Shown here: positions 5,770-60,432 of the stretch, one piece after another | How positions within the stretch are numbered: position 1 is the stretch's first letter | How the letters are laid out: each line of letters opens with the position of its first letter | NCBI GenBank assembly: GCA_032622095.1 | Contig: CP136066.1 | Location: 100,957,319 to 101,021,318, forward strand | Direction: 5' to 3' | DNA: 64,000 nucleotides | DNA from: Siphonodentalium dalli | Taxonomy: Eukaryota > Mollusca > Scaphopoda > Gadilida > Siphonodentaliidae | Notes under the pieces: model-generated | Database searches by the model: none | Told to the model about the DNA's origin: nothing | What the model saw: the letters and a program-made list of their open reading frames with translations, nothing else | Program-made: the position numbers and the translations under genes

Positions 5770-6800
5770 GGGAATCTTATTAGATATTGGTGTGCCCGAC
5801 TTCGTCCGGGCTATTTATGGATTTCAACGTTGAAAAGTATTAGGAGAAAGAAACAAAACTATTGTTCGATCTGCCCAGAAACATGCCTATATGAGCGTAT
5901 ATGAGCGAGGTCAAGGTCAAGTACACGATCTCACGTGGAATTGGACCCGCCGATATTGTTCCCGGGATCAAAGTAGGTCTACATACCAAATTTGAGTCAG
6001 ATCGGTCGAGCGGTTTTCGGTCTATAACACACATACACATACAGAAGTTCCAAAATATATAATAGACCAGCTGATGTGCCCGACTTCGTCCGGGCTATTT
6101 CGATATTTCTTTGCCACAAACATGCCTATATGAGCATATATGAGCGAGGTCAAGGACACGGTCGCACGTGAAATTTGACCCGCCGATATTGTTCCCTGGA
6201 TCGAAGTATGCCCACGTACCAAATTTGAGTCGAATCGGTCGATGTCCCGAAACATGCCTATATGAGCGAGGTCAAGGTCAGGGTCAGGTTCAAGGACACG
6301 ATCGCACGTGAAATTGGACCCGCTCGTGTTGTTTCCGGGCTCAAAGTAGGCCTATATACATTCCAAATTTGAGTCGGATCGGTCGATGTTCAGAAACATG
6401 CATATATGAGCGTATATGAGCGAGGTCAAGGTCAGGGACACGATCGCACGTGAAATTGGACCCGCCCATACATACATACATACATCGATGCTGACGATGC
6501 ATACATACATATATACATACATACATAAGTTCCAAAATATACAGTAGACTTGCTGATGTGCCCGACTTCGTCCATGCTATCTTTGTCATCACATCCGTCT
6601 GGACAGAATATTCAGCGTCTGGACAAATTATTGTTCGATCGGTCCAGAAACATGGCCATATGAGCGGGATCAAAGTAGGCCTGCATACCAAATTTGAGTC
6701 GGATCGGTCGAGGTCCAGAAACATGCCTATATGAGTGTATATGAGCGAGGTCAAGGTCAAGGACACGGTCGCACGTGAAATTGGACCCGCCCATATTGTT
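5770..6800 (-). mobile_element. Tandem Helitron-like non-autonomous units (minus orientation)
   Basis: Two to three head-to-tail units. Each opens on the + strand with GTGCCCGACTTCGTCC(G)GGCT (near 5790, 6073 and 6555) and ends with a CATA-rich tract plus GAAGTTCCAAAATATATAATAGAC. On the minus strand the junction near 6065 reads hairpin, ACATCAGCTGG, then TCTATTATATATTTTGG. This matches a Helitron 3' end (hairpin plus CTRR) followed at once by a 5' TC end. The interior repeats CAAATTTGAGTCGGATCGG, CGCACGTGAAATTGGACCCG and GAGGTCAAGGTCA. The units are diverged: the junction near 6550 has CAAG in place of CTAG. Confidence 0.6.
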
Positions 6801-8727
6801 CCTGAGATTTTACAGAGATTTTTAAAACTGCCCATTTTCTACCTTGTGAAGTACGTTTTTCTACAATATCCCTCATCGGCGATACCAGAACGCATTAATC
6901 CTCCATCCGATATATATACCAGTTTGTGTGAAATTAGAGTATAGGGGGGCGAATAGAGTGACATGGACAGAAAACAATGCAATCGCGGCGATGAAATGGC
7001 TGTCAAAATGGCCGCAACTCCAATCCATGCTACGACGAAAGCAACATATTGGATAACCACCTATAAGCGAAAATACACATTGGTAATTTACAAGTATGTT
7101 GTTATATATCTTAAAAGGTACACATATAATTAAAACAGATCTATCTGAATCGTTTGTCGATCACTGCAACGCACGTTAACCCAATAATTTGCATTCGGGT
7201 TTTCTGCTTAGAATGCAGCCAACAGTCGGGCCAAAACAGTTATTTCGGGCATGCAACACACGAAGTAATATTTCGTCACACAGTGCGTGGTCGTTTCATT
7301 TGGAATGATGATTAATTATTGAATGTAACGCAGAAACTGAAATGCAAACCCTTGCTGTGTAAATACTAGTTATATTTCCGGAATTTTCAACACTTTCCGT
7401 GATAATAAACCATACACGTATGTCGTAATGCTGATTATACTGGAAAGAAACACTCATCTCTTCAACAGGATAGTACCCTATCTCACTAGATCGAAGAGAC
7501 TGTGCATCGTACATTTGATTTAATACTAATTTTCATGCTGCTTCAAAACCGGTATCTTAGTAGACAATTTTGTTAAAATTACTTCAATCGGCACTTTAGA
7601 ACGGGAATATGTACCATGCAATGCACACTATTAGTTTTCAGCATCTTGTTGTTTGAAATTGTATTAACATTGCCACCCACATACTTGCGCTAACTATTAG
7701 GTCATCAGCGTTTAAAGTTATTAGTTCTGCGTTTACCATTCATTCAATGTTGCTATTTATGATTGTGTGTGCAGCAGATATGTGTAACATTGGGGAGAAT
7801 GGATAAACGCGGCGATGCGGTTGCAGAAAAGGTAGTACGTTTCGTGTATATATGGCCTTTTAAGCACATATAATGTCCAGGTATAAAGACAGTCTCTTCC
7901 ACAGAGTATGTAGGCAAATTTGGTTATGTTGAGAATTTATTGAAGATAGTCTATTGTATCCCTTTGTATTTTGATCAATTGCGTTCATGGTATACCACCA
8001 TGTATTTGTGTGATAAAAGCGAAATATTCGTGTTTAACCACTTGGCCGGGGGCAACTATGATTACTTTTTAAAGACACGGACAATAGGATCTACACATGT
8101 TACCTAGAACCATATTAATAGCTCTCATACTGTTCTATATTAGTGAATTTTGACAGATTTGGTGTTGTAGATCTAAAAATAAATTATTATCGGTCACATT
8201 CGTGAGACTATTTTCATTACATACATTTCTGATTCTAGAAAAGGTCACATAATCAATACATCCCTTTTAGATCACATTTAACTGTTTAATTACACATATA
8301 TATTACACGATTCAAGATAAACAGTACGGATAAAACTGCGTTATTCTTCTGTTTCTTGGCGCCTAAAAAGCAGGGGCGTAGGAAGCTATAATTATTGGAG
8401 GGGGGGGTATCAGGGAATATTAGGAATATTAGGGGCCATATTCGATAGACGACAGCCGCAGGCTGGGGAGATGGGGAGAGCACGAGAGGGGTGTCCCCTC
8501 TCATCGGTGGGGGTCTGGGGATTTTTCTTAATTTAAAATCCTCAGATCGCATTTCGTTGCATCTGTGACAGCAATTACGTTAAATAACCCATTGAGGGAA
8601 AATATGGTATTTTAGTTTTTCACCTGTTGTACAAAATAGTATGGAGATCATTTTTGACTCTCATAAGCGTGTGTGTACAAATGGAGCAGTCTTCCACGAA
8701 AACATGACTTTTATGTTTATACTTACA
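6801..8727. other. Intergenic, no gene recognised
   Basis: Only short unsupported ORFs. A G-rich patch at 8395-8520 coincides with small ORFs that match nothing I know. There is no clear repeat boundary. Confidence 0.35.
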
Positions 8728-9308
8728 TCTCATATATATTTTGAAGACCTCTGTCTGTCTGTATGTCCTTTATAGAATCGAAAACGGGTTGACCGATCGA
8801 GACCAAACTTCCTATCCAAAGGTAAAATGTCACGGGAATAGTCGACGTCGCATTTTGGAGAAGCCCAGAGCACCCATTCTCCACTCCCAATCATCAAAAT
8901 TACCGCAAACGCCACTTCGGTGGTTAAGGCATCAACGATCTTTATATTGACCATATTCGGATGTGTTAAGGATGAACGCTCTTTATTACAATCGAAGCTG
9001 CTAAACGGCTACCCATGCGTAAAATACGGATGCAAAACGAAACGCGGAATGCAATTATCTCGATTAATAAGGCAGAATGGGTTGTTGTGTCATATATGTC
9101 CTAGGAACAGGGGAATTTTTCATCGGGTCAGTTTTTGAGGGATGGGTATACTATACCATGAAATTTGCTATGTGAATGTATCTTGCCCCGGATACGAATT
9201 TATCGGGTCGCCGAGCCCGTGCGACGCCAGCTTCGCGCATGCGCAGACCAGATCTCGGAAACGGGTGGAGCTATCGACTTGAAATTTGGTTTTTGAATCA
9301 TCGGCTAG
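8728..9308 (+). mobile_element. Helitron-like non-autonomous element, single 122-bp core unit
   Basis: The 5' end TCTCATATATATTTTGAAGA follows host A727. Next come CTGTCTGTCTGT and a body containing one copy of the GC-rich core (GCGCATGCGC at 9236-9245). The 3' end is CATCGGCTAG at 9299-9308, followed by T. TC...CTAG ends and insertion between A and T are Helitron hallmarks. The terminal GCCCGGAC...GTCGGGC hairpin seen in sister copies is deleted here, since TTTTTGAA runs straight into TCATCGG. It is the same family as 44380-45555 and 47036-47379. Confidence 0.65.
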
Positions 9309-9480
9309 TCTAATATATATTTTGGGACTTCTGTTTGTTTGTCTGTTTGTCTGTTAGCTATGGCCGGGAAAACGGCTGGACCGATTTAGTTCAAATTTCC
9401 AATCTAAGGTTAAAAAACCACGGGCAGTGTTTACCGCCGTTTTGGAGAATGTATTTCTGTGCCGGTTCCTGTTGAACTTT
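9309..9480 (+). mobile_element. Start of a second, truncated Helitron-like unit, joined head-to-tail
   Basis: Directly after the CTAG of the preceding element comes TCTAATATATATTTTGGGAC with (TGTTTGTC)n. This is a diverged 5' end of the same kind with no spacer base. The body fades near 9480 and no 3' end was identified. Confidence 0.5.
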
Positions 9481-10729
9481 CTCGATTTTTGGCACCAGCT
9501 GACACCATGCAGTAATGGATTAACAGTCACTAGAATTTGTTGACGGTGCTAGATAATATAGCAATAGACATTTCCACGGTCACATAATTTTTGGTAGTTC
9601 AGCTACACACAACGTGAGTAGTTTGTAGCATCCGTAAATGTTGTGCCCAAAGTATCCGCAGATATTCGATCGATGCTCTATATGCAGCTCCTGATAGAAA
9701 GAATAATTTAATATATTAGAATATTAGTTTTCCAATTCTGGATGCTATTAGGATGCGATCTTACCACCCAGCACTTTTTTCCGAGTTTCCCGGCTTTACA
9801 ATCATATTATGATATCCTGATATTGATACAGTACCAATTCAAAGACAGCAGTCAACACCGCTTCCGAAATTATAAAACATTATTTCTTTCAGTGTTTGGC
9901 CACACGCGAACATCACCAATTAAAACGGTGGAACAGCACACGTTAACTAGTTTAGAAAATGATCCATGTACGAATAACCGGCACATCAATATATTTTTAT
10001 TGGAGATCTACTAATATAATCAAATTTAATATATATGTGACACCAAATATTTCCCAATGACCTCAATTGTTTTGTTTTGTTTTTGCGAGAAAATTAACCG
10101 TGAAAATGCTTATGACAAAGTTCACAGAAGTTTTAAACAGTACCTGCACGAATGAGACACTCACTTATTATCACAAAATCAGCCGATATCAGCATATTCC
10201 CCACTAATATCTGGACGGAATATCAAACAAAAAAATTAGAACAATTTCAAACACAATTGGGTGCGAAATGTCCAACTAATGTCCTCAACTGAATTGTCAA
10301 AATTTTAACTTTGCATGTTTTTAGATAAATATATACATAAACACATATGCTGATAATTATGATGATGATACATTGGATTACATATACTGCTACTTACCAT
10401 GCGTAGTGCAGGCTGTATTGATAAACTTGACCTTGTCTCTTGTCAATAAAGACCCTATAAATACCAACTATGTTTCGAACCTTTAATCTAACGCCAAAGA
10501 ATGGTGCAACTGACTTGGTTCCATTAATGTGAAGGCTTTGTCCATCCATATACATTAAACTACACAGCTATTCAAACCGAAATTAATTAATGCCAGTTGC
10601 GTGGAACGATATCATGTTTCAAAAGACGACGCTACATGCTATTTTGTTAAGAGAACTCAATGCAGACAGTCCAGTGGGATCGCATGCCATTAGTTAAGTG
10701 TGAATGATTAATGACCATGCCCGTGGTCT
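9481..10729. other. Intergenic, no gene recognised
   Basis: A 90-codon open frame at 9742-10014 has no recognisable domain and could be chance. No repeat structure stood out. Confidence 0.3.
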
Positions 10730-11390: not shown

Positions 11391-12171
11391 CATGTACTGT
11401 ATATTTTATGTCAAACTGTGCGCGGGCGGAGAATGTGATTGGCTAAGTTGAATAAATAAGAAATACAGTTTAAGTGTTGACCATTTTCTGGAAATTTGGA
11501 GGGGGGTATTTACCGCCCTTGCCCCCCCCCCCCCGGTTCCTACGCCCTTACCAAAAAGTCCATAATTAATCGTTGTAACTATGAGACCTGGCTTTCGTTT
11601 GCTCTCTCGCGAGATACATTAGAGAGAATTCTTACATATATTATTAAAAGCTCCCCTTATACTCTGAAATCATACTTCCTCGTATAATTCGAGGGCTTGT
11701 TCGTTCTTGTATGACTAGCTATTCAATTTTCCACAAATTGTAAATTTTATTCGATTTTGTCCGTTTTGGTGGCAATATTGGGACAGACAATCTACCGATG
11801 TTGTTTACGACTAAGCATTGTTTGTGTGTATTTTATTTTATTACTAATTTGGTATTATTTGGCTTTCGATACCAACTGCCATCATGGACGCCATTTTTGG
11901 ATTACAGAAAATGCTCAAAGCGGATTTTAGCTGATTTTGTTATGTTATGTTATAGAGGATATATTCCTCTTCAAAATGGAATAGAAACCAACTTAGTCCA
12001 AACTTATTCTAGGTTGACCCTAAAATTTTAGTTTATCGACCAGACTAATACCAAATTTGAGTCGGATCGGTCGAGCAGATTTCGAGCCTATAACACATAC
12101 ACACATACATATATATCTATATTAAATGTGGTAAATACAAAAGTTCTAATAATATCACAATTACACTTCAG
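11391..12171. other. Sequence upstream of P450 copy A exon; repeat scraps
   Basis: A poly-C run lies at about 11523-11535. A 5' fragment of the 5.8-kb Helitron-like family (TTTGAGTCGGATCGGTCGAG, then CACATACACACATACATATA) lies at 12050-12116. From about 12118 the sequence is homologous to 51525-51579 (GTGGTAAATACA...TAATATCACAATTACA), so it is the intron 5' of the P450 exon. No upstream P450 exon was seen. Confidence 0.45.
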
Positions 12172-32869: not shown

Positions 32870-33462
32870 TTCCATGTGGTTTTTGTAGGCATGGCACAGC
32901 TTAATCTCCAGTAAGATGGACTTTGGTTTCATCGCACTTGTATACAAATTGAATAACGTTTTAATTACTTGTTTAACATCCGACATCGACCCTTTAAGTC
33001 GGCACGTTTTATGTACCGACAATGAACGCATTGTTGGTAATTATCTACCATAATCTCACTTGTTAGCACCATGTATCAATTAAATGATGACCACCAGCTT
33101 GTTATCAAATCATCTATAACGATCTTCATACGAACCAATGTGGATACAATAACAGGCCATCAGTGTAAACAACATGTGTTATGAAAGCAAACAAAAGCAT
33201 TTCGCCCAGTGGATAAGTAACTTTCATTTCTGTATGATTTCAAAATATTCCTTAAGTAAAATGTGTCCCTCTGTAGATTATGCTGTTGCCATGCACGATG
33301 AAGCACTATAATGGTATACTCTTTGTTTTTTAGTATTGTTGTTAAATTTTATTAGTATGAACGCATTATATACGTATACTTCAAATGTTTGATTTAGGTA
33401 AATTGTACAATTGTAGGGAGAATAGGAAATCTTACCAGCTCCATGGCTAGTACACTGAAATA

Positions 33463-36400
33463 ATGTCTGACACTAGTTCAACAGATCACAGTAATACAAT
33501 CCGATATACAAGCTGGAATGTGCAAGGGATCCGTAAAAAAATAAGAGATCCAGATTTTAGAAACCAAATAGAGAGATATGAGTTTATTACTCTGGTAGAA
33601 ACGTGGCATCAAGATTCACCAGATATTCATTTAGAAGGGTATGAAAATCTAAATTTAAGTCGTTCCCAGGCCAAGAAAAAGGGTGGTATAGCCTTTTATT
33701 TTCTCTCAAAATTCAAAAAGTACATGCGAAAAGTCTACACTGTAAACGAGGTAGCACTATGTGTCGAGTTCGATGGTCAAATGCTTAACCAATCCTCAAA
33801 AGTAATATTTGTGTCATTGTATATTCCGCCCAGCAATTCTAGTTTTTGGAAGACGAAAGATAAAGACGATGATATATTTGAATGTGTCGAGAAGGCTTTA
33901 GCTCGATACAAGAGCGGTGAACTATTAATTCTCGGCGGGGATTTCAATGCACGCACAGGTGAATTGCCAGACCACGTGGTATCTGACAGTGATAAGCACA
34001 CGCCACTCCCAGCTGATTACATAATTGACACGTGCCCCAATAGAGCCAGTATGGATAGTCGTATAAACTCTTTTGGTCGCCAGCTCATAAATCTCAGCCG
34101 AAGTTGTGGTATTCGTGTAATTAATGGACGATCTACAGGCGATAGACTTGGTCATTTCACAAGCTATCAATATAATGGGGCGAGCGTCGTTGATTATATC
34201 CTTATAACAGAGAGTTTTCTTTGCGCGGTTGATTACTTTTGTGTTAAACTTCCAACTGAATTCTCTGACCATTGTCAATTAGTTCTTCACTTAAAATATG
34301 ACAATGAACGATGCCAATCACAAAACAAATATAAATATACCCAACTTAGAACACATCTTAAATGGGCAGAGCATAGTGAGGAGAAATTACGCAACGCCAT
34401 GCATAATACGTCCATTCGCGGACGCTTAGCTGATTATAAAACGTATCACTATCAGCATGATGTTTATGGTGCCAAAAATGCGACCAAAGACCTTATGCAA
34501 ATAGTAAAAGACGTAAACATGTACGCATGTGTACGAAGGGTAGTTAGTAGGAAGAAAACTCCGCGTAAAAGAAAATGGTTTGACGGACAATGTAGGGAAT
34601 TTAAGCGCGATCTCGGGAAAATCATTAATGATATGAGGAATAACCCATTTGACCCAAACCTAAGAACGCGATACCATGTGAAACGAAAAGCGTACAAAAA
34701 GGCGCTGAAGGCTAAACGACGAGCATTCTACGCAGATATATATTGTAAACTAGATACTTTAGAAACAACCAACCCAAAACAATATTGGGAAATCATAACA
34801 AAAATGCGGCAGAGACCGCTCTCACAAAATGAACTTGATGCTGATCGATCAGTTGATTTTTTCACTGAGCTTTATTGTCCGAAACCTGATAATCCAGATT
34901 GTGGATTATCTTCGGACACATATCAAACTTGTAATCAAGCTATCAATAATGATGATATCACGACAGAGGAAGTTCTTGGCGCTACAAGAGAACTAAAAAA
35001 CGGAAAGGCGATTGGACCCGACCAAAATTCGAACGAATTGCTGAAGTCACTCGTTCCATTGATAATTGATGAAATTGTAAAATTGTTTAACTTAATTCTG
35101 GAGACAGGACATTATCCGAGTGATTGGAGCGAATCTACCCTCACTTTAATTCACAAAAAAGGAGACAAAAGTGATCCCAATAACTACAGGGCAATAGCAA
35201 TATCATCGGCGGTCGGTAAATTGTTTAACAAAATAATTAATCGTCGGTTAATCGATTTCTTACATGTAAACAATATTATCAGCGAAAACCAATTTGGTTT
35301 TTCGAAAGGGAAGAGCACCATTGATGGAGCATTTGTTCTGCACGCGGCCATTCAAAAATACAAACGATTGGGAAAGCCCCTATATGCTGCATTCATAGAT
35401 TTCAGAAAAGCGTTCGATACAGTAAACAGACAATTACTTTTTAAAAAATTAAAATGCGCGGGCATTAAGGGACTCATACTACGGATAATACAGTCACTAT
35501 ATGACAATAGCTACTATATCACCAAAACAAACAAAGGGTTGGGGCCTCCATGCTTATCGACGATAGGTGTTAGGCAGGGATACATATTGTCCCCAAACCT
35601 GTTCAAAATCTTTATTGACGACATTAAAAAAGAGTTTGACAGTCCTTGCGAGGCTGTCCATTTAGGCAATGATACACTTAATCACATTTTATTCGCTGAC
35701 GACCTGGTTTTACTTTCTGATACTCCAAGTGGGCTACAGTGCTGTCTAAACAGACTAAATAGATACACTGAGAACAATAAACTCACCGTGAACACTGATA
35801 AAACTAAATGTGTGGTGTTTAGAAGTAGGAAAACAAAAACTTTACCAGACTTTCACATTGGAAATCAAAAGTTGGAAATTGTTAATGAATACAATTATCT
35901 TGGAATTAAATTTAGTAATACGGGTAGATTCTCACATGCAATGGAAGAATTGAGTGCTAAAGGACTCAAAGCAATGCATTCTTTATTTAACGCATGTACA
36001 AACGACGCACCGATTCCACTAGTGACTTCTGTAAAACTCTTCGATAGATTAATTAAGCCGATATTGTTATATGGTAGCGAAATATGGGGTGTGGAAATAA
36101 CCACTAAAAATCACGACCGCCTTCCATGTGAGAAGGTACACATAAAATATTGTAAGCGGTTACTCGGAGTCGGCAGATTTTCTTCGAACAACGCGGTTCG
36201 CGCCGAGTTAGGGAGCCATCCATTATTTATTGACGTGGCATGCAGACTTTCATCTTATGTAATTAAGATAATTTCACGGTCGGACTGTAATCTGCTCCGT
36301 AATGCTGCGTTGGAACAACAAGTGGCATCGGTTAAGAAATCAATCTTCAAAACGGCAGAATCACTGGGGTGGAATATTGCAGACCTAAACAATCCGGGTC

Positions 36401-36924
36401 CAGTTCTGAGTCAATTCAAAAGAAATCTTATTGAAGATTATTATATATATTTCAGACAGAGTCTCACTGATGAATGCTCAAAAACGGGAAGTAATAAATT
36501 ACGAACATACCGACTTTTCAAACTTAAGTACGAAATAGAACCTTATCTTCTTCACACACCATCAATAGAAAATAGAATCGTTTTTACTAGACTGCGTATA
36601 AGTAATCATAAACTGGCTATTGAAAAGGGACGCCACACCCAACCACCGACGGCATTGGAACAAAGACTATGTATATTTTGTTCCGATGATGCTATTGAAG
36701 ATGAAAAACACTTTCTTTTGGAATGTAGTGCTTACCGCACACCGCGGCTCGAACTAATAACTCTTATGAAGACACAGTTCCCAGACTTTGAAAACATGAC
36801 ACAAACTGAACAGCTTGTCAAAATCCTATCCAACAATATTTCAAATTCATGCACTTCAATATGTCATATAATCCGAAAATTATTTTCCGCACGCGATGAG
36901 CTTCGCCTCATAAGCAATGAATAA
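33463..36924 (+). CDS. LINE ORF2: APE endonuclease plus reverse transcriptase, intact, 1153 aa
   Basis: A single uninterrupted frame. Endonuclease landmarks: TSWNVQG (N19), LVETW (E46), GGDFNAR (about 158-164) and SDH (268-270), all catalytic residues present. A basic linker (VVSRKKTPRKRKW, about 360-375) precedes the RT: ELKNGKAIGPDQ, LIHKKGDKSDPNNYRAIA, QFGFSKGKSTID, AAFIDFRKAFDTVN, GVRQGYILSP and FADD (744-747). The C-terminal knuckle is C1070-x2-C1073-x9-H1083-x4-C1088. It would nick target DNA and prime cDNA synthesis there. The open frame and intact active sites suggest recent activity. APE class is certain; the clade (CR1-like range) is not. Confidence 0.95.
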   Translation: MSDTSSTDHSNTIRYTSWNVQGIRKKIRDPDFRNQIERYEFITLVETWHQDSPDIHLEGYENLNLSRSQAKKKGGIAFYFLSKFKKYMRKVYTVNEVALCVEFDGQMLNQSSKVIFVSLYIPPSNSSFWKTKDKDDDIFECVEKALARYKSGELLILGGDFNARTGELPDHVVSDSDKHTPLPADYIIDTCPNRASMDSRINSFGRQLINLSRSCGIRVINGRSTGDRLGHFTSYQYNGASVVDYILITESFLCAVDYFCVKLPTEFSDHCQLVLHLKYDNERCQSQNKYKYTQLRTHLKWAEHSEEKLRNAMHNTSIRGRLADYKTYHYQHDVYGAKNATKDLMQIVKDVNMYACVRRVVSRKKTPRKRKWFDGQCREFKRDLGKIINDMRNNPFDPNLRTRYHVKRKAYKKALKAKRRAFYADIYCKLDTLETTNPKQYWEIITKMRQRPLSQNELDADRSVDFFTELYCPKPDNPDCGLSSDTYQTCNQAINNDDITTEEVLGATRELKNGKAIGPDQNSNELLKSLVPLIIDEIVKLFNLILETGHYPSDWSESTLTLIHKKGDKSDPNNYRAIAISSAVGKLFNKIINRRLIDFLHVNNIISENQFGFSKGKSTIDGAFVLHAAIQKYKRLGKPLYAAFIDFRKAFDTVNRQLLFKKLKCAGIKGLILRIIQSLYDNSYYITKTNKGLGPPCLSTIGVRQGYILSPNLFKIFIDDIKKEFDSPCEAVHLGNDTLNHILFADDLVLLSDTPSGLQCCLNRLNRYTENNKLTVNTDKTKCVVFRSRKTKTLPDFHIGNQKLEIVNEYNYLGIKFSNTGRFSHAMEELSAKGLKAMHSLFNACTNDAPIPLVTSVKLFDRLIKPILLYGSEIWGVEITTKNHDRLPCEKVHIKYCKRLLGVGRFSSNNAVRAELGSHPLFIDVACRLSSYVIKIISRSDCNLLRNAALEQQVASVKKSIFKTAESLGWNIADLNNPGPVLSQFKRNLIEDYYIYFRQSLTDECSKTGSNKLRTYRLFKLKYEIEPYLLHTPSIENRIVFTRLRISNHKLAIEKGRHTQPPTALEQRLCIFCSDDAIEDEKHFLLECSAYRTPRLELITLMKTQFPDFENMTQTEQLVKILSNNISNSCTSICHIIRKLFSARDELRLISNE

Positions 36925-38403: not shown

Positions 38404-38899
38404 TCAGTTTTTACATAGCGCTTCGTACTTATTCAAACTTGATCGCCACCTGTAACATTTCTGACACCTCCTGCACTGGTATCGTGGGAGTTGGTGCATC
38501 CCCTTCTTGTGATCTTCCATATTGAATTTTGTTGAAAATGTCCTCGAACAAACATCACAAGAGTATTCTGGCACATCTGCATCTGCGTGGCATGTTTTAT
38601 TGTGCCTATTCAAAGACCCAGGTGCCTTGAAGTTTTTCTTACATCGTGTACACTGGTCGATGGCGATTCCAGCATGCGATGCTTTGTGGTAACGTAACTT
38701 TGACGGTTGGCAGAACCCCTTACCACATACGTTACACGTGTGTTCAAACTGCTTTGTATGTTGCGATTTTTCATGCAGCTTTAGCGCACATAGCCTGCTG
38801 AAAGATTTGCCACAATAAACACACAAGTGGGAGCTTTCTTGTTCTTGATCCGGATTATCTGCTGCAACTGGTGGTCTATGTTTGTTTACATGTCTTCTC
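38404..38899 (-). CDS. C2H2 zinc-finger protein, terminal exon
   Basis: The open frame runs from an in-frame stop near 38902 to a stop at 38404-38406. It begins RRHVNKH, the tail of a finger whose cysteines must lie in an upstream exon. An acidic, Gln-rich linker follows, then four standard fingers: CVYC...H-x4-H, CNVC...H-x3-H, CTRC...H-x4-H and CDVC...H-x4-H. A fifth (CRRC...YEALC) has lost its histidines. Such arrays bind DNA in the nucleus; the target is unknown. The acceptor near 38899 has a weak pyrimidine tract, and no upstream exon was found. The frame is intact, so it is probably a real gene. Confidence 0.7.
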
Positions 38900-39219
38900 T
38901 CAGATTATATAGTTTGGTTGTGCTATACGTACATTCCGAACATGTGTACTACTGTATGACGACTGGACGATTGCGTACATATATACAGCGATAAACGTGT
39001 CACACACACATGTCAAAGCAAGCTGATCGTCACTTAACTCGCATGCTTTTTATTTGCTATAACCTGAATAGTAAATGTATGCCGGAGTCACGGGGCCTCT
39101 CAAATGTATGATATCTCAGTCGCACTTGGAAAGCATGAACACGAACTACGATACGGTCAGTTACATGTGTTTTGCGTAGGCATACACATGGCTGTAGCAA
39201 CACAAGATATAAACATTAA
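38900..39219. other. Short intergenic stretch upstream (minus sense) of the zinc-finger exon
   Basis: No further finger-coding exon was seen on the minus strand. The stretch ends at the TTAA-flanked MITE beginning at 39220. Confidence 0.35.
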
Positions 39220-42064: not shown

Positions 42065-43129
42065 TATAACTGAAATATGGAGAGCACACAAACTTACATA
42101 AACCACACTTAGCATGAATGTATGTACTTGTATACATATCTATTCAAACAATAAACCGTGTAGCATGTTATACATGCATGCAGCCGTGCATTGCAATCCC
42201 ACAACCCCACCAAACACGCACGGTATATATTAATTATATAATTTATTTCACATTCTGGAGTCAGACACATCTTTCTGTGAGACTCGACAGTGGTAAGATC
42301 ATCTAATAACCAGTCGCATGCCAATGCATTCACATCATGTGTGCCACAAAGTCTTATTAATCATGGGAAAATTAATGATTTATATGTCGTGCAAATAGAG
42401 CAATATTTTGCTCAAATATGTTCAATATCCACATCACTCGCTTTAGTGAGAAGTTCAATACGCATGTATACATGCCCAAATCAGTGCGAAAGGTCTAGAT
42501 TTGTGTCTTTCAAGCATGATGCCGTACACCGAACTCGCATACTGGTTACACTGGTGTAAATAAGGTTCGGAGAGACCTCTAGCGGATGCGGGAGGAATAT
42601 ATAGGAGAGAATAAAATATACACTGGGCCCTGATTGGTCAATAGCCTTGTGTGCTTTTTGCATAAAAAAATCATCACACCTCTTCCCTATGGTTTCCCAC
42701 TGGTAAAATAGCCATTGGCACAGGAATTAACCCTCTGTAGTGAAGTTTGAATTTTTTGTTGTGGTCTAAAATATGACAGTATTTTTTTATGCGGTTCTGA
42801 CACTAGTTAGGAAAACACAAGATTTAAAGGCGAATTCCCTGCCTGTCGTGCCTGATTTGTTTGTGCAAAAAGTTTCCCAAAGTGTCAATTTTTCAGATTT
42901 AAAGAAAATTTTGGACCCAATGTTTATATTGCCAATAGTATACGCTAAAACGTTAGCACTGAGGCCTATGGAAAACATTTACACCTGTGTAACCTACTGC
43001 AGTACACTTGTCCACTGGCTACATTGGCATACTGCCGTACACCTGGCTTTTTTTAATCGGATTATTTTGCCAAGAAAACTGTCTTATTGGTACCAGATAC
43101 ATTATATATAACGCAGATCAAACCCTGCC
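42065..43129. other. Intergenic, no gene recognised
   Basis: A 112-codon frame at 42773-43111 has no recognisable domain and low-complexity hydrophobic composition. No repeat boundary was seen until the Helitron-like array. Confidence 0.3.
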
Positions 43130-43757
43130 CGGACAAAAGTACCCTTCTAAATCCATCCGGTTTTTCCCGATTTGACCTCGAATTGATAATTTTGAAGGTC
43201 AAGGTCATGTATTTGACCTTGAATTGTCTGTTTCCCCTCTGCTTTTCGGCGAATTGCCCGATTTGACCTTGACTTGTCCATTTTGAAGGTCAAGTTCAAG
43301 TGGGGTCACGATTTGACCAGTCCAAAACACTGCCCGGACAAAAGTACCCGTCGAAATCCACCCGGTTTTACCCGATTTGACCTTGAATTGATCATTTTGA
43401 AGGTCAAGGTCAGGTCGGGGTCACGATTTGACCCGTCCAAAACACTGAATGGACAAAATAAAAATTCGCGATTTGACCTTGAATTGACCCGATTTCAAGG
43501 TCAAGGTCACGTCGCACGGGCAACCGAATAGGCTTACGACACCCCCATACGAAAGTATCCCTAGATACTCGGGCGTTCGACCTTGAAATGACCCGATTTC
43601 AAGGTCAAGGTCACGTCGCACGGGCAAATTAATAGGACCATGCCACTCCCCGGCCGAAAGTACCCCACATACCAAGTTTCATTGAAATCGGCTCGGCCGT
43701 TTTCGAGTCCATCGCGAACAGAAACACACACACAGATTTCCCAAAATATATAATAGA
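43130..43757 (-). mobile_element. Helitron-like unit 1 of array (left end truncated)
   Basis: On the minus strand its 5' end TCTATTATATATTTTGGG lies at 43757, immediately after the CTAG of unit 2. The interior is ~110-bp repeats with CCCGGACAAAAGTACCC, GATTTGACCTTGAATTG and AAGGTCAAGGTCA. Its own 3' hairpin end is missing near 43130. Confidence 0.6.
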
Positions 43758-44379
43758 CTAGAAGGTGACCCGACTTCGTCCGGGCTTTGACCTTGAATTG
43801 TCCATTTTGAAGGTCAAGGTCAAGTGGGGTTACGATTTAACCAGTCCAAAAACACTGCCCGGACAAAAGTACCCGACAAACGTGCCCGTCGAAATCCATC
43901 CGGTTTTACCCGATTTGACCTTGAATTGATAATTTTGAAGGTCAAGGTCTGGTCGGGGTCACGATTGGACCCGTCCAAAACAATCAGTGGACAAAACTAA
44001 TCCCACGTATCAAATTTCGTCGAAATCCCATCAAAATTGCCGATTTGACCTTGAAGTTACCCGATTTCAAGGTCAATTTCACGTCGCACGGGCAAATGAA
44101 TATGCTTATGAGACTCGCCATAAGAAAGTACCCCCACATATCAAGTTTCATCGAAATCCCGTGATATTCGGGCGTTTGACCTTGAAATGACCCGAATTCA
44201 AGGTCAAGGTCACGTCGCACGGACAAATTAATATGCCTGTGTTCGTCCCCGGTCGAAAACACCCCAACATACCAAGTTTCATCGAAATCGGGTGGGCCGT
44301 TTTTGAGTTCATCGCGAACACACAGACAGACACACAGACAGACACACAGACACACAGATCTTCCAAAATATATAATAGA
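43758..44379 (-). mobile_element. Helitron-like unit 2 of array
   Basis: 622 bp. On the minus strand it runs from TCTATTATATATTTTGGAAG (5', at 44379) with (TGTC)-rich tract to the hairpin GCCCGGACGAAGTCGGG, then TCACCTTCTAG at 43758. The interior is like unit 1. No base separates it from units 1 and 3. Confidence 0.7.
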
Positions 44380-44940
44380 CTAGCCGATGAGCCCGACGTT
44401 GTCCGGGCTATTCAAAAACCAAATTTCTAGTCAATAGCTCTACCCAACCAGAAATTTCAAGTCGATAGCTCTACCCGTTTCCGAGATCTGGTCTGCGCAT
44501 GCGCGAAGCTGGCGTCGCACGGGCTCGGCGACCCGATAAAATTCGTATCCGGGGCAAGATACATTCACATAGCAAATTTCAAGTCGATAGCTCCATCCGT
44601 TTCCGATATCTCGTCTGCGCATGCGCGAAGTTGGTGTCGCACGGGCTCGGCGACCCGATAAAATTCGTATGCGGGGCAAGATACATTCACATAGCAAATT
44701 TCAAGTCGATAGCTCCACCCGTTTCCGAGATCTCGTCTGCGCATGCGCGAAGCGGGCGCCGCACGGGCTCGCCAATACGACAACGTTCACCGCCTGGTCA
44801 AACTACACACACGTACCAAGTTTCGTCCCGATCGGTCGAGAATCGTAGATTTGTATAAATGACAGACAGACAGACAAACAAACAAACAAACAAACAAACA
44901 AACATACATACAGACAGAGGTCTTCAAAATATATATGAGA
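44380..44940 (-). mobile_element. Helitron-like unit 3 of array, three 122-bp core repeats
   Basis: 561 bp. On the minus strand the 5' end is TCTCATATATATTTTGAAGA at 44940, with a long (TTTG)/(CTGT) tract. The 3' end is GCCCGGACAACGTCGGGC, TCATCGGCTAG at 44380. Core repeats with GCGCATGCGC start at 44495, 44617 and 44739, 122 bases apart. The interior differs from unit 2 while the termini agree, so two subfamilies are joined. Confidence 0.75.
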
Positions 44941-45555
44941 CTAGCCGATGAGCCCGACGTTGTCCGGGCTATTCAAAAACCAAATTTCAAGTCGATAGCT
45001 CCACCCGTTTCCTAGATCTGGTCTGCGCATGCGCGAAGCTGGCGTCGCACGGGTTCGGCGACCCGATAAAATTCGTATCCGGGGCAAGATACATTCACAT
45101 AGCAAATTTCAAGTCGATAGCTCCACCCGTTTCCTAGATCTGGTCTGCGCATGCGCGAAGCTGGTGTCGCACGGGCTCGGCGACCCGATAAAATTCGTAT
45201 CCGGGGCAAGATACATTCACATGGCAAATTTCAAGTCGATAGCTCCACCCGTTTCCGAGATCTGGTCTGCGCATGCGCGAAGCTGGCGTCGCACGGGCTC
45301 GGCGACCCGATAAAATTCGTATCCGGGAAAGATACATTCACATAGCAAATTTCAAGTCGATAGCTCCACCCGTTTCCGAGATCTCGTCTGCGCACGCGCT
45401 GCACGGGCGTCGCACGGGCTCGCCAATACGACAACGACGACCGCCTGGTCAAACTACACACACGTACCAAGTTTCGGCCCGATCGGTCGAGAATCGTAGA
45501 TTTGTAAAAATGACAGACAGACAGACGGACAGAGGTCTTCAAAATATATATGAGA
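44941..45555 (-). mobile_element. Helitron-like unit 4 of array, four core repeats
   Basis: 615 bp with the same ends as unit 3. Core repeats start near 45025, 45147, 45269 and 45390 (the last shortened). Overlapping small ORFs on both strands here are by-products of the repeats. At the outer end host A precedes the TC terminus on the minus strand (GAA|TCTCATATA). Confidence 0.75.
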
Positions 45556-47035
45556 TTCAAAATATATATGATATATTCATGTTGACATCTAGTATTACTT
45601 AGACATTTCAACTTTCCGCATTCCCAATCGCTCCATTGACTGTAACACATGAAATTACCCCCATTGTCATTGACATTTTCATACCTTAAAAATTTGACAA
45701 GAAATGTGATTTTGGGAATTTTGCCATTTTGGATCGTAGGGTATGGACACACATTGGGTTTGTTGGTAAATGTTTGAGGTGAAATCTGAATTATTCGTTA
45801 ACGGCCATTCGTCAATGTTTTCGAATGTCCATGCAACAACGAATAAGCAACCGATGTCACGTACAAGACTGATTAGTCTTTAAACTAGCTAGCTTTAGTC
45901 GGTATTGTGATAAGTACTGCCCCTTTACTAAATGCCCAGCATGTCCAATTAATAAAATAAAATATTAGCACAAATAAACGTTTGCTACTATCTTGTTATA
46001 TGGCGACTAAAGTTGTAAAATTGTTACTTTTGTTACTTGAGGCAGTCTATGGTGGACGCATGCAAGTAATGTTTTCAGTCTGTCCGTATCTCTGCTAATC
46101 TGTTTATCTGTTTGTCTGTTTATATGTCCTTCCGCGAATATGTTACGTCATACCGTAAGTACATAATGTAAAGAATGTACATGCCCTAATATGAAATAGT
46201 TGCACCAATTGTAATTTAAATCCACATATATACTTAATTTACATTGTTATCTGGTTTTATTTTGGTAATAAATCTTTCATAAAAGAACAATATTGAAAGA
46301 TTTCTTTCTGGAAACCGATAAGACTCGGTGACGTCACGACGAACATTGGGACGTCACAAGCTACATGGGCGCGCAAAACACCAGACATGATTGCGTCGAT
46401 GTCCAGACAGCTGAGACTCGTATTACACGGGCATGATAAACATATTCTGCCAACAGCTTTCGTGTTTTATTATTATTATATATATATATAAACTGCACGG
46501 GAAAATAAAAGTGGGAAATAGTACTGCCCATTGGAAGCCTATTTTATGTAAAATGAGTTGAGATTAAGTCTAAAAGATGCGTGCGGAATCTTTTTTTTTT
46601 TTTCGCAGAGACAGTGAGGTGCGAAAATATTTCTGCAAACTTTCTTCGAAGTTTCCGAAAGATCCTGGTGCATATAAACCATGTCCGGCCAAACAGTCGA
46701 GCGCATGGTTCAATTAGGAAACAATTGCACTGAAAAATGTGAATGTGGAAACATGGATTATTAAAATGCCTTATTAGTTAACTGGGAAAACAAGCTTTCT
46801 CATTCTCAACGCCATATATATAGACATTTGATTATATATTCCCGAAGAGCGTAGATCAGTCGCTAAGGGCATGTTCACATTGACACACTGTTAATCAGAG
46901 ACTATAAGCCAATGATGGCGTGTCTTTTATTTAATTGTGTCAGTATTTGTAATTGCCTTTGATGTTTTTTGCCGCTGAAGTGCAATGTCATACACATATC
47001 ATTCTAGTCAAACTAGTAATTTAATCCAATTGGTA
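45556..47035. other. Intergenic, no gene recognised
   Basis: A (TA)n run near 46480 and a poly-T near 46591. No supported ORF or repeat ends. Confidence 0.3.
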
Positions 47036-47379
47036 TCTCTTATATATTTTGAAGACCTCTGTTTGTCTGTCTGTATGTCATTTATACAAAACTTGGTACG
47101 TGTGTGTAGTTTGACCAGGCGGTCGTCCTTGTCGTATTGGCGAGCCCGTGCGACGCCCGTGCAGCGCATGCGCAGACGAGATCTCGGAAACGGGTGGAGC
47201 TATCGACTTGAAATTTGGTATGTGAATGTATCTTGCCCCGGATACGAATTTTATCGGGTCGCCGAGCCCGTGCGACGCCAGCTTCGCGCATGCGCAGACC
47301 AGATCTCGGAAACGGGTGGAGCTATCGACTTGAAATTTGGTTTTTGAATAGCCCGGACAACGTCGGGCTCATCGGCTAG
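47036..47379 (+). mobile_element. Solitary Helitron-like copy, plus orientation, two core repeats
   Basis: 344 bp from TCTCTTATATATTTTGAAGA (host A at 47035) through CTGTTTGTCTGTCTG and two GC-rich cores. It ends in GCCCGGACAACGTCGGGC, TCATCGG, CTAG (ends 47379), followed by host T. It is a clean A|T insertion with a 3' hairpin and the best single example of the family. Confidence 0.75.
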
Positions 47380-51383: not shown

Positions 51384-51579
51384 TAGCGAATAAATGAGTT
51401 CAAATGTGAATGAAGAAACCCCAAAAAATCATATTATAGTAGTTGTTCAGATAGCGCAGTGTGATAACCGCATGTCATTATATCCGCAGTTGTGGTGAGC
51501 CATATAACCAGCAATTTGCATAATCTATATTAATTGTGGTAAATACAGAAGTTCTAATAATATCACAATTACATTTCAG

Positions 51580-52095
51580 GTGTGCTTTTTGCATCCGGTC
51601 CAAGATGGAAACTCAACAGAAGATTCTGTTTGCATCATCTGAGAAATTTCGGAATGGGTACAAGCATGATTCAAACAAAGATACAAGAAGAATCAGGAAT
51701 ATTAATGAACGAGATAGACACACAGAAGGGAAATCCATTTGACATCAAGAGATTGGTACACAGCGCGAGTTCGAATGTGATATGCTCCATATTATTCGGA
51801 CACAGATTTAAATATGACGACGAAGAGTTTAAAGGTTATCTGCGCAGATTGGACGAGAACGCATCAAGTAGCGGAGCCAACTTGCTGTTTCTGAGCCCCG
51901 CTTTACGCCATATTCCCGGTGATCCTTTCAGTGCTAAACTGTTAATAGATAATACAAAGAAGGCTATTAAGTTTGTCGAAAGAGAGGTTGATCAGCACAG
52001 GGAAAACTTCAAACCTGGGGTCACCAATGACGTCGTGGATGCATATTTAGATGAATGGAAGCGCGCAGAAGAAACTGGAGATACTGAATTTTGTA
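51580..52095 (+). CDS. P450 copy B, exon with C-helix
   Basis: The acceptor ATTACATTTCAG ends at 51579 and the donor TGTA|GTAAGT begins at 52096. It reads [16 protein letters not shown]... to ETGDTEFC. The GPRWK of copy B is closer to the common CYP2 form than the GARWK of copy A. Fully open. Confidence 0.92.
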
Positions 52096-52214
52096 GTAAG
52101 TAATTTTTGTATGATTTTTGTAAGTATACCAGACGAAATGGGAGATTTGTTATCCTTGCTATTCTATATTTGAAATATACGTGTCACTATGGAACGCCAT
52201 AGCTGCCTTATGTG

Positions 52215-55120
52215 TGCATGACATGACGATACTTTATCGTTATGAGATGAGACTATCAATATGATGATGAGATTTTATCATCACGTGATGAGACTTTATC
52301 ATTACGTGATGAATCTTTATCATTACGTGGTGAGACTTTATCATTACGTAATAGATCTTTATCATTACGTGGTGATACTTTATTATTATGAGAATGAGAC
52401 TTTATCATTATGATGATGATACTTTATCATTATGATGATGATACTTTATCATTATGATGATGAGACCTTATCATTATGATGTTGATACTTTATCATTACG
52501 TGATGAGACTTTATCATTATGATGATGAGACCTTATCATTGTGATGATGATACTTTAACATTATGATGATGATACTTTATCATTATGATGATGAGACTTT
52601 ATCATTACGTGATGACTTAATCATTATGATGATACTTTATTATTATGATGATGAGACGGTATCATGATGATGCTAATTTATCATTAAGATGATGAGACTT
52701 TATCATTAAGATGATGAGACTTTATCATTACGTGATGATACTTTATCATTATGTGATGAGACTTTATCATTATGTGATGAGACTTTATCATTACGTGATG
52801 AGACTTTATCATTACGTGATGATACTTCATCATTATGATGATGAGACTTTATCATTACGTGATGATACTTTATCATTATGATGAGACTTGATAATTATTT
52901 ATCATTATAATGATGAGACTTCACCATTACGCGATGATACCTTTATCATTATGATGATGAGATTTCACCATTTACGTGATGATACTTTTATCATTATGAT
53001 GATGAAACTTTATCATTACGTGTTGAGATGTTATCATTACGTGTTGAGACGTTATCATTATGATGATGATACTTTATCATTACGTGTTGAGACTTTATCA
53101 TTAAGTGATGATACTTTATCATTATGTGATGAGACTTAATCATTATGTGATGAGATTTCACCATTACGTGTTGATTCTTTATCATTATGACGATGTGACT
53201 TTATCATTACGTGTTGAGACTTTATCATTAAGTGATGAGACTTTATCATTTTGTGATGAGACTTTATCATTATGTGATGAGACTTTATCATTATGTGATG
53301 CTACTTTATCATTATGATGATGATACTTTATCATTACGTGTTGAGACGTTATCATTATGATGATGATACTTTATCATTATGTGATGAGACTTTATCATTA
53401 TGTGATGAGACTTTATCATTACGTGATGAGACTTTATCGTTACTTGATGATACTTTATCATTATGTGATGAGACTTTATCGTTACTTGATGATACTTTAT
53501 CATTACGTGATGAGACTATATCGTTACTTGATGATACTTTATCATTATGTGATGAGACTTTATCGTTACTTGATGATACTTTATCATTAAGTGATGAGAC
53601 TTTATCATTATGATGATGAGACTTTATCATTACGTGATGATACTTTATCATTATGATGAGACTTGATAATTATTTATCATTATAATGATGAGACTTCACC
53701 ATTACGTGATGATACCTTTATCATTATGATGATGAGATTTCACCATTACGTGATGATACTTTTATCATTATGATGATGAAACTTTATCATTACCTGTTGA
53801 GATGTTATCATTACGTGTTGAGACGTTATCATTATGATGATGATACTTTATCATTACGCGTTGAGACGTTATCATTATGTGATGAGACTTAATCATTATG
53901 TGATGAGATTTCACCATTACGTGTTGATACTTTATCATTATGACGATGTGACTTTATCATTACGTGTTGAGACTTTATCATTAAGTGATGAGACTTTATC
54001 ATTTTGTGATGAGACTTTATCATTATGTGATGAGACTTTATCATTATGTGATGCTACTTTATCATTATGATGATGATACTTTATCATTACGTGTCGAGAC
54101 GTTATCATTATGATGATGATACTTTATCATTATGTGATGAGACTTTATCATTATGTGATGAGACTTTATCATTACGTGATGAGACTTTATCGTTACTTGA
54201 TGATACTTTATCATTATGTGATGAGACTTTATCGTTACTTGATGATACTTTATCATTACGTGATGAGACTATATCGTTACTTGATGATACTTTATCATTA
54301 TGTGATGAGACTTTATCGTTACTTGATGATACTTTATCATTAAGTGATGAGACTTTATCATTATGATGATGATACTTTATCATTACGTGTTGAGACTTTA
54401 TCATTTTGACGATGACACTTTAATATTATGATGATGAGACTTGACCATTATTTATCATTATGATGATGAGACTATCATTACGTGATGATACCCTATCATT
54501 ATAATGAAGATACTTTATCATTATGATGAGACTTGATCATTATTTATCATTATGATGATGAGACTTTATCATTATGATGATGATACTTTATCATTATGAG
54601 ACATTACCAATATGATGATGATACTTTATCATTATGACGATGATACTCGATCATTACGTGATGATACTTTATCATTGTGTGTTGAGACGTTATCATTACG
54701 TGATTAGACTTTATCATTACTTGATGAGACTTCATCATTACTTGACGATACTTTATCATTATGATGATGAACATTTACCATTATGATTATGATATTTTAT
54801 TATTATGTGTTGTGACTTTATCATTACATGATGAGACTATCATCATGACGATGAGACTTTATCATTACGTGATGAGACTTTATCGTTACGTGATGAGACT
54901 TTATCATTACGTGTTGAGACTTTATCATTACGTGTTGAGACTTTATCATTACGTGTTGAGACTTTATCATTACGTGTTGGGACTTTATCATTACGTGTTG
55001 AGACTTTATCATTACGTGTTGAGACTTTATCATTATAATGATGAGACTTCACCATTACGTGATGATACCTTTATCATTATGATGACGAGATTTCATCATT
55101 ACGTGATGAGACTTTATCAT
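52215..55120. repeat. 21-bp satellite array in intron 1 of copy B, with ~0.75-kb higher-order duplication
   Basis: Units of GATGAGACTTTATCATTACGT and variants (TTATGATGATGA, GTTACTTGATGA). A block around 52878-53651 is repeated at 53652-54405: ACTTGATAATTATTTATC recurs 774 bases later and the GTTACTTGATGA sub-block recurs 753 bases later, with one or more 21-bp units lost. Because 21 is a multiple of 3, long frames arise on both strands; none is a gene. Confidence 0.93.
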
Positions 55121-56888
55121 TTGTTAGTATAGAAATATATAGTTCCGCTTAACTGAAATTCTGAAATTCCTCAGCCAAGAGATCGAAATTATTGAAGCTG
55201 GCTGTGAAGACCGTTATTACGAGCACACCTGTTTCAACTATGTTCACGAGTGCCAAGAATGCAATTCATAACAATATCAGTAATTCGTCTTCAAATAAGC
55301 TGTATTGTGTTTATTGTAAATCTCAAACCCACTCTTCATATTCTTTTTCTAATGTCAGTAATTTCGAAGATAGACTCAACGTCGTCAAAGAACAGAAATT
55401 GTGCTAAAATTGTCTTTCTAGTTCCCACCTTGTGTTCGTTAGTGGATCGAAATTTCGATGCAGAATTTGTAAAACGTAAACATCACTCGAGTCTCTGTAA
55501 CCCACCCAGAATCACGGCTACGAACGAGTTCAACCAAAATCAGACCACTCACCAAATGTTCGCCTCATCATCTTCAGACATATGCGATACATAGGGATTG
55601 TGGGTTCAATGTAAGTACAAACGATGCTGCTGACAGTACCGCTTGTGTCTCGACAACGTTGCTGAAAACTGCGGTGGCTGACGTTTCTTCTCAGATATGT
55701 TGTAAAAGTGCAAATTTCCTGATTGACCACGGTTCACAATGCTCATTCATAACTAAAACATGTGCAAAGAGACTGCAACTAACTCGATCGGTAAACGTCA
55801 AATAAATGTGTCAGCATTTGGATATGGAATTCCTCAAACAAGATCTCTCGATGTAGTCCGTGTGAGACTACCATGTGACACCGAGGATGTGAAACTAATT
55901 CTTCGTGGTTCCTAAAATCTCCACACCATTGGATATCAGTACCTATCGCAATTTATCACACTATGAGCATATCCGGGGTCTCAAATTGGCCCATCCAACA
56001 AGAAACTCCTATTCTTTCGTAATTGACATAATAATTGGTGCGTATCAGTACTATGCGTTAGTTGGTGGAACTCAGATTCGTGGAAAGTCAGGCCCAATAG
56101 CAGTTCAGTCAAAATTAGGTGTGTGTTGACCGAGGATTGTTCAAAGAACCGTGACACTGAGGAATTTAAGAAGCACGAAGACATTGATGTTGATTATCCA
56201 ATGGAGAATAGCAGTGGTTTGCTTAAGAGATACTGTGAATCCATCGAATATGTTGACAATCATTACCTTGGTCTGATAGAGATGAATCCTTCCTTATGAA
56301 TGTTGAGATTCATACACAACGAACAAGTGCAATGGTGCAACGCCTGGGCATGACACCAGGACTTCTCAAATACGATAACATCCGAAACGACACGACGAGG
56401 TGTGGATTTGATGCGAAGGTGCCAATATATGTTGTTAATCTCAATGAAACTGGTAAATGTCATTATGTTTCCCACCATCCTGTTTTCAAAGAGTCCATCC
56501 AGTACGACGACTATCAGAACTATATTGAATTGTACTAACAAAGCTGAACGTCCGGGACAGCTGTGTATCTATGTTCATGATTGTTACAACGAGCGGCAAT
56601 ATGAATTAGCGGCTGAATATTGCTGACCTTATGAACTGTTCGTGAATCAAAGTTGTTTAGTTATCTGTGTGCAGCTATACAGCAGTGCAATTTTGTTCTC
56701 TTGTTGCCTCCCCGGGGAGGATGTCGGGGAACAGCCTTGGTGTGGCCTATAGCCAATACGTCACTCCAATTTTCATAAGCATACGCATGAACTGTACTCA
56801 CCTCGCGGTCAAGTTGTATTGTAGTCAGTTGTTTATATCAGATAATATAACATACATCGAAACACACTTAGCTAGAATCTCTCCCAAA
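55121..56888 (+). pseudogene. BEL/Pao LTR retrotransposon remnant inside the satellite
   Basis: Pieces in order: a Gag-end segment (FLSQEIEIIEAG, about 55166), a zinc-knuckle region (CVYCKSQTHSS, then HHSSLC near 55485), and an aspartic-protease-like LIDHGSQCSFIT (about 55720-55755). A linker follows, then the beginning of the RT region (KCHYVSHHPVFKES, from about 56456). Most of RT, RNase H and integrase are deleted. A polypurine tract GGGGAGGA leads into an LTR start at 56722. Multiple stops and frameshifts; no 5' LTR. Clearly dead. Confidence 0.7.
56722..56888 (+). repeat. Partial 3' LTR of the BEL/Pao remnant
   Basis: TGTCGGGGAACAGCC starts directly after the polypurine tract CGGGGAGGA (56713-56721). 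About 165 bp remain before the 21-bp satellite resumes at CATTACGTGATGAG, so its CA end is lost. Confidence 0.55.
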
Positions 56889-59991: not shown

Positions 59992-60432
59992 TTGAAGAAC
60001 TTGTGACTGTGTGTAGTGACTTGCTTGTGGCAGGAACCGAAACAACTGCCTCCACAATGAGGTGGTTCTTCGTCTACATAATGCAGAACCCGGATATACA
60101 AAAACAAATACAAGCGGAAATAGACGAGCACATTCCGGCCGATCGACTGCCGACTATGGAAGACAAGCCGAGATTGGTCAACATGGAGGCGGCCATATTG
60201 GAAACGCTCAGACTTTCCACTCTAGTGCCCTTCAGTTTACCTCATCGAGCAGCTGAAGATTTCGAATTCAAAGGTTATAAAATACCATAGGATGCATACC
60301 TTTTGCCGAACCTATATTCTGTGCACTTCGACGAACAACTCTTCCCGAATGCAGATAAATTTGACCCGTCTAGGTTCATCGACGGGGAAAATAAGATAAG
60401 ACATTTGGACGAGAACATACCGTTTTCTATAG
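59992..60432 (+). pseudogene. P450 copy B, exon with I-helix and K-helix, nonsense codon
   Basis: Acceptor CCTCGTTTCAG ends at 59991; donor ATAG|GTAACA at 60433. IEELVTVCSDLLVAGTETTA through [15 protein letters not shown] is intact. TAG at 60288-60290 follows GYKIP. Afterwards [15 protein letters not shown] and FDPSRFIDG continue in frame to FSI. Confidence 0.92.

Follow-up and report, generated by a model that had tools for sequence, protein, structure and literature searches.

The 64-kb window, i.e. the whole stretch of DNA analysed, contains six junctions at which two Helitron-like copies adjoin each other without a spacer. The reading we prefer, to which we assign a probability of about 0.55, is that these arrays grew by Rep joining the 3' CTAG of one copy to the nicked 5' TC of another copy. 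Six of the nine recognised 5' ends in the window adjoin the 3' end of another copy. The 5' ends were located by patterns starting with TCT, with mismatches allowed, after which each of the 12 TATATTTTG sites in the window was inspected. The nine ends counted are those of U1 to U4, E, B9, D9, X2, and X3, all with termini intact or nearly so, while two were left out of the count, the decayed fragment X4 and a partial end of 18 nt at 45573 with TA as its first bases.

Four of these units, U1 to U4, form an array on the minus strand at 43-46 kb. An earlier note on this DNA described it as a head-to-tail array without spacers, which was borne out at all three internal junctions. These read CTAG-TCT on the minus strand (the hyphen marking the joint) with no spacer base in between, and are located at 44941/44940 (U1/U2, CTAG-TCTC), 44380/44379 (U2/U3, CTAG-TCTA), and 43758/43757 (U3/U4, CTAG-TCTA). 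U1 (44941..45555, 615 bp) is a full unit of subfamily B running from TC to hairpin-CTAG, with four core markers at a 122-bp period. U2 (44380..44940, 561 bp), also full and of subfamily B, has three core markers and a long (GTTT/GTCT)n tract. U3 (43758..44379, 622 bp) is a full unit of subfamily C with a weak hairpin and the end CTTCTAG, and U4 (approximately 43124..43757), again of subfamily C, has an intact 5' end. The unit starts agree with those given before, TCTCATATATAT in U1 and U2 and TCTATTATATAT in U3 and U4, or in longer form TCTCATATATATTTTGAAG and TCTATTATATATTTTGG, respectively. It had also been claimed that each unit ends in hairpin-CTAG. This holds for U1, U2, and U3, but not for U4, which lacks a recognisable 3' end. 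Similarity of U4 to U3 extends to the hairpin region (around 43250) and is followed by a partial core repeat (43129-43253), where the unit fades out near 43124; a CTRR end was not found. Directly upstream of U1 lies a partial 5' terminus of 18 nt (45556..45573, minus strand), which begins with TA instead of TC. It looks like a 5' end duplicated by self-insertion and resembles the multiple 5' termini of Fusarium Helitrons, which perhaps arose by self-insertion (PMC5148889).

The assignment to the Helitrons made in the earlier note was supported, since a TC start, a CTRR end, a 3' hairpin, and A/T flanks were all observed. TC is present at all nine recognised 5' ends of the 64-kb window. CTRR is present at six of the seven recognised 3' ends (five CTAG and one CTGG), the seventh being the CAAG of X1; for U4, X3, and D9 no 3' terminus was recognisable. 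All three unjoined 5' ends (U1, E, and B9) are preceded by A, that of U1 standing right after the 18-nt partial end, and the single isolated 3' end, that of E, is followed by T. The flanks of E, the sole copy with both flanks, share a 2-bp TA, so that a 2-bp duplication is compatible with this site; the left flanks of the other two unjoined copies end in AA (U1) and CA (B9) instead.

For the hairpin, the last 45 nt of eight 3' ends were folded as DNA and compared to 200 shuffles each. A simple stem was predicted in five of the eight ends and, in a sixth (U3), inside a longer stem. The predicted stem lies 10 nt from the 3' end in U1, U2, and E, and 11 nt from it in X2, in agreement with the distance of about 10-12 nt expected of canonical Helitrons; X3, whose end is undefined, folds into the same simple stem. 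In U3 the predicted hairpin is a 4-bp CCCG/CGGG stem within a longer stem reaching CTAG. Support from folding is modest, as 8 to 20 of 200 shuffles folded equally well for U1, U2, E, X2, and X3 (8 each for U1 and U2) and 32 of 200 for U3. No stem was predicted in X1, where it is broken, or in B9, where the palindrome is absent.

None of the 46 open reading frames of at least 100 aa in the window, all scanned against Pfam, contained a Rep/helicase domain, and a Rep/helicase acting on these units would be encoded elsewhere. The units themselves are most readily interpreted as canonical Helitrons of the non-autonomous type, carrying a microsatellite together with core repeats of 122-140 bp. Their common plan comprises the 5' TC, an AT-rich left end, a (GTCT)n-like tract, a common head, core repeats, the 3' hairpin, and CTRR. 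Coding potential of other kinds was seen in an open 1157-aa stop-to-stop reading frame on the plus strand (33451-36924) with endonuclease and reverse-transcriptase domains, as in a non-LTR retrotransposon, and in an uninterrupted reading frame on the minus strand (38404-38904) with C2H2 zinc-finger matches in Pfam. Reading frames for reverse transcriptase of the non-LTR type, together with P450 exons, give the window a eukaryotic character.

The termini recur within the window far above the background of shuffled sequence. A 19-mer from the 5' end matched five times with at most three mismatches (0.03 expected from shuffles), the 3' hairpin core seven times (0.11 expected from shuffles), and a looser 16-nt 5' pattern ten times (0.88 expected). 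E (47036..47379, plus strand, 344 bp) is an isolated full copy of subfamily B with the flanks ...GGTA-TC and CTAG-TATAAT. Three further zero-spacer junctions are located at 6549/6548 and 6067/6066 on the minus strand and at 9308/9309 on the plus strand. The first two belong to an array of subfamily X, in which the 3' part X1 (6549..6840), ending in CAAG with a broken stem, is joined to the full unit X2 (6067..6548; CAAG-TCTA), which ends in CTGG and is in turn joined to X3 (5790..6066; CTGG-TCTA). X3 has a 5' end and a hairpin; its CTRR is not recognisable and its end is approximate. At the third junction, which reads CTAG-TCTA, B9 (8728..9308), a unit with B termini, a D-like interior, and one B core marker, is joined to D9 (9309..9560), which shows the subfamily D start TCTAATATATATTTTGGG; the 3' end of D9 was not found and its right limit is arbitrary. 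X4 (12015..12135, minus strand) is a decayed fragment from the 5' head of a subfamily X unit (BLAST match 12048-12109) and no longer begins with TC.

Two details concern the 3' ends of these copies. At 9298/9299 on the plus strand, B9 lacks exactly the 20-nt palindrome of U1, U2, and E, while CTAG and the flanking bases remain and CATCGGCTAG is retained, which looks like a loss of the hairpin during replication. After the hairpin of X3 (5790-5770, minus strand), CACACCAATA is followed by TCTAATAAG, which may represent a decayed end and then a decayed 5' start. Beyond the window, a search of viral contigs with the junction and core patterns yielded no locus. A single pattern match among genome contigs, in a bacterial MAG, has neither hairpin nor core repeat in the 701 bases read around it and is regarded as chance. 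Five short end sequences of these units had no occurrence in the literature searched.

The array mixes subfamilies with similar termini, as proposed in the earlier note, U1 and U2 belonging to B and U3 and U4 to C. The further claim that the interiors of the two pairs are unrelated has to be abandoned, as they are diverged homologues. Local alignments of U1 and U2 with U3 and U4, ends removed, scored 118-152, i.e. 6.2-9.5 standard deviations above dinucleotide shuffles, and all four outscored every one of the 200 shuffles made for each. Reversed, complement, and reverse-complement controls scored 55-94, and random stretches of the window aligned to U1 (n = 342) and U2 (n = 335) reached 96.5 at most. 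Stretches common to both interiors are the head after the microsatellite (...CCGAT...GAAACTTGGTAYGT...) and CCCGTGCGACG. The core repeats have a period of 122 bp in U1 and U2, 131 bp in U3, and 140 bp in the X array, and the B core repeats match by 93-95% within their arrays. Subfamily X resembles U3 and U4 (z 4.3-10.6) and is more weakly similar to U1 and U2 (z 1.1-4.7), partly not above shuffles. X2 against U1 and U2 gave z values of 4.6 and 3.5 (scores 112.5 and 95.5 versus 110.5 and 99.5 for the best shuffle). X1 against the same two units gave 1.1 and 1.8, not above shuffles. Both comparisons count against a reading as common lineage. X1 was included in the shuffle test and absent from the reversed and complement control, and E, B9, and D9 were part of neither interior test. 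The interior of B9 resembles that of D9, with a local score of 95.5, where two controls other than shuffles scored 59 and 51. As judged from the alignments, the U1-U4 array is composed of two diverged branches of one lineage.

It had been argued from the shared termini that the machinery reads the termini alone. This is still plausible, but the common plan and the homology of the interiors make the argument weaker than stated. Two of the six junctions join unlike subfamilies (U2/U3 and B9/D9), and four lie within one subfamily (U1/U2, U3/U4, X1/X2, and X2/X3). A motif, TCAAGGTCA, is confined to two of the arrays. Of its 22 sites in the window on either strand, 18 are located in U3 and U4 (43199-44212) and four in the X array (5911-6759). 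By its sequence it is a putative extended half-site for nuclear receptors of the SF-1/ERR type.

Precise joining of Helitron ends has been shown experimentally for Helraiser. Its circles carry CTAG joined precisely to TC (PMC4778049), and the purified transposase forms CTAG-TC junctions in vitro and, when given junction oligonucleotides in single-stranded form, cuts them precisely at the joint (PMC5876387). The circles have been shown experimentally to be usable as donors (PMC4778049, PMC5876387). In all ten sequenced insertions, TC is preceded by A and CTAG is followed by T, and 46 of 1,751 mapped insertions are at dinucleotides other than A-T (PMC4778049). The units described here share with Helraiser/Helibat of bats the TC...CTAG ends, the 3' hairpin, the A-T target, and the precise CTAG-TC joining (PMC4778049, PMC5876387). 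They differ in having core tandem repeats, and the scanned reading frames of the window yielded no Rep/helicase domain. Furthermore, the joined ends are chromosomal here and also occur between unlike subfamilies. Mothra, a non-autonomous Helitron of rice, is similar in its TC...CTAG ends, hairpin, and internal blocks of tandem repeats, whereas its subtypes measure 1252-2741 bp and include a block of 20% GC (PMC4683698); here the comparison is with the published description.

Three models lead to the same junction: a new copy may have inserted at the edge of a resident one, a rolling-circle concatemer may have formed, or a circle may have recombined with a resident copy. In the preferred reading, Rep carrying one copy would nick another copy at its own A-TC site, and the 3' CTAG of the carried copy would then be joined to the 5' TC of the nicked one. 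This would be the joining step of Helitron circle closure, except that the two ends belong to different copies. The joined product would have no spacer and would retain the outer A...T target, and new copies would be added at the 5' side. Since joining in trans needs compatible termini only, unlike subfamilies can be joined. Placement at a 5' junction keeps the A-T rule while a 3' junction would have G at its left, so that growth at the 5' side would be favoured.

The exactness of the joints was assessed against the other A-T sites nearby. The first 20 nt of the six joined resident 5' ends contain 22 such sites, four each in U2, U3, U4, X3, and D9, and two in X2. The window was scanned for CTRR directly followed by what a break at each of these sites would leave. 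Against six exact junctions, no broken 5' end following a 3' terminus was found in the window. The three matches of the scan were the intact start of D9 and the positions 56118 and 55543, which show neither hairpin nor other resemblance. If all A-T sites were used equally, all-exact junctions would be expected in about 1 of 9,000 cases by simple arithmetic. A mere preference for AT-rich targets was rejected as the whole explanation. Over 20 nt, the AT content of the 5' ends is 70-80%, a level reached by 14-45% of the 13,925 A-T sites of the window and hence nothing unusual. A taste for AT thus leaves base-exact joints unexplained; these would require either recognition of the terminus as such or a junction formed ahead of insertion. 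Five further ideas involving exact termini were dropped on the basis of the broken-end scan. Only tentatively do we consider that in this genome resident Helitrons may offer their left ends as preferred integration sites, where Rep would nick at A-TC and join incoming copies of any subfamily with matching ends, such that arrays would grow base-exactly at the 5' side and most copies would come to lie in mixed arrays instead of singly.

No paralogous empty site became apparent, the flanks of the arrays being unmatched among the 140 longest self-matches listed. The window also harbours duplicated P450 exons (Pfam PF00067) approximately 39-42 kb apart, 12115-13155 corresponding to 51523-52563 and 17961-18606 to 59881-60526. 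The first exon is followed in both copies by a satellite of 21-bp period, with about 135 copies at 52217-55121. This duplication stops short of the array flanks.

Alternatively, the 3' terminator may have been bypassed or a circle copied repeatedly, and the resulting multimer inserted in one step, in which case mixed arrays would stem from donors that were already mixed. This explanation appears less likely to us. Bypass of termination is the explanation given for tandem Helitrons of bat and silkworm (PMC4067079), and if a concatemer had been inserted the junctions would look identical and their exactness would follow by itself. Moreover, four of the six junctions lie within a single subfamily. 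The two junctions between unlike subfamilies argue against it, as does the lack of closer kinship between the neighbours U1 and U2. Counted over the 5' module, there are 12 differences in 224 positions between U1 and U2, 8 in 196 between U1 and E, and 13 in 196 between U2 and E; in the 3' module of 160 positions the respective numbers are 3, 2, and 1. Hence, the neighbours U1 and U2 are no closer to each other than U1 is to the dispersed copy E, although this is one testable pair with small numbers. For the other neighbouring pairs the window holds no dispersed copy of their kind for comparison. Eight differences in the 5' module are private to U2 and sit mostly in two blocks. The differences among U1, U2, and E are few and nearly star-like, so that a dimer derived from one burst remains compatible with them. 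The divergence of U3 from U4 (462 of 516 ungapped columns identical, with large length differences) and of X2 from X3 (168 of 196 identical) also speaks against insertion of a multimer in one step, although it could as well be due to age.

Homologous recombination in the core repeats between a Helitron circle and a resident copy would likewise give exact junctions, together with mosaic units, and we regard it as improbable. Circles with exact junctions exist (PMC4778049), the B core repeats are 93-95% alike within arrays, and B9, with its D-like interior between B ends, is a mosaic. Against this, the joint of B to C is hard to explain as the interiors are weakly alike, and no mosaic breakpoint was demonstrated at U2/U3.

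It had also been suggested that the units recall the pearl/CvE elements of bivalves. Elements of this type are classed as Helentron HINEs, which carry subterminal inverted repeats and insert into T-rich targets (PMC7492417, PMC4067079), and they were compared here by the published description of their plan. The likeness is restricted to part of this plan. The microsatellite and central tandem repeats of HINEs are present in our units, and the microsatellite beside the left end, the core tandem repeats, and the 3' palindrome would fit an origin as HINEs of the pearl/CvE/DINE-1 kind (PMC7492417). Related flanks with differing cores are a further common feature of Cg_HINE/pearl/CvE and the units studied here. 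In contrast, their subterminal inverted repeats and T-rich insertion sites were not found here (PMC7492417). A search for subterminal inverted repeats of 12-15 bp by exact matches between the first 45 and the last 110 nt of U1, U2, U3, E, and X2 gave a longest match of 4-7 nt, equalled by 29 to 200 of 200 shuffles and hence not above chance in the five units tested. The flanks are A-T instead of the T-rich (TT) insertion site, and the ends are TC and CTRR. On the exact subterminal repeats and the flanks, membership in the HINEs/Helentrons was rejected, and we consider this reading very improbable. Plain expansion of a satellite or an assembly artefact, without transposition, is hardly credible. 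Nested tandem repeats do occur, but an isolated copy with A-T flanks has the same ends, and so do two further loci, with both orientations represented. The array units are also too different for an echo of the assembly.

Arrays of this kind have been reported from bats, silkworm, fungi, and plants. Helitrons in tandem are known from bat and silkworm, and in bat and maize Helitrons of distant relationship lie immediately side by side (both as told in PMC4067079). In the text of a silkworm Helitron paper, a search for tandem, head-to-tail, multimeric, or adjacent copies found none (PMC3789558). For three tandem copies in Metarhizium, insertion at the 5' end and rolling-circle replication were both left open (PMC5148889). 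Since tandem copies as well as adjacent unlike Helitrons have already been published, the kind of structure is known, and the mixed zero-spacer arrays described here are mainly a clear new example that hints at the joining step. A possible difference from the cases in bat, maize, silkworm, Metarhizium, and Fusarium is that six of nine recognised 5' ends are joined without a spacer, a rate that applies to this window only.

If it is indeed the circle-closing reaction that joins copies in trans, failed termination would not be required for tandem Helitrons, and the ends that one Rep accepts could be read from arrays in which unlike elements are combined. Relatedness across junctions could then be compared genome-wide with relatedness between loci. 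If, in addition, the left ends of resident copies were preferred sites, composite elements and new tandem repeats could readily originate from such arrays.
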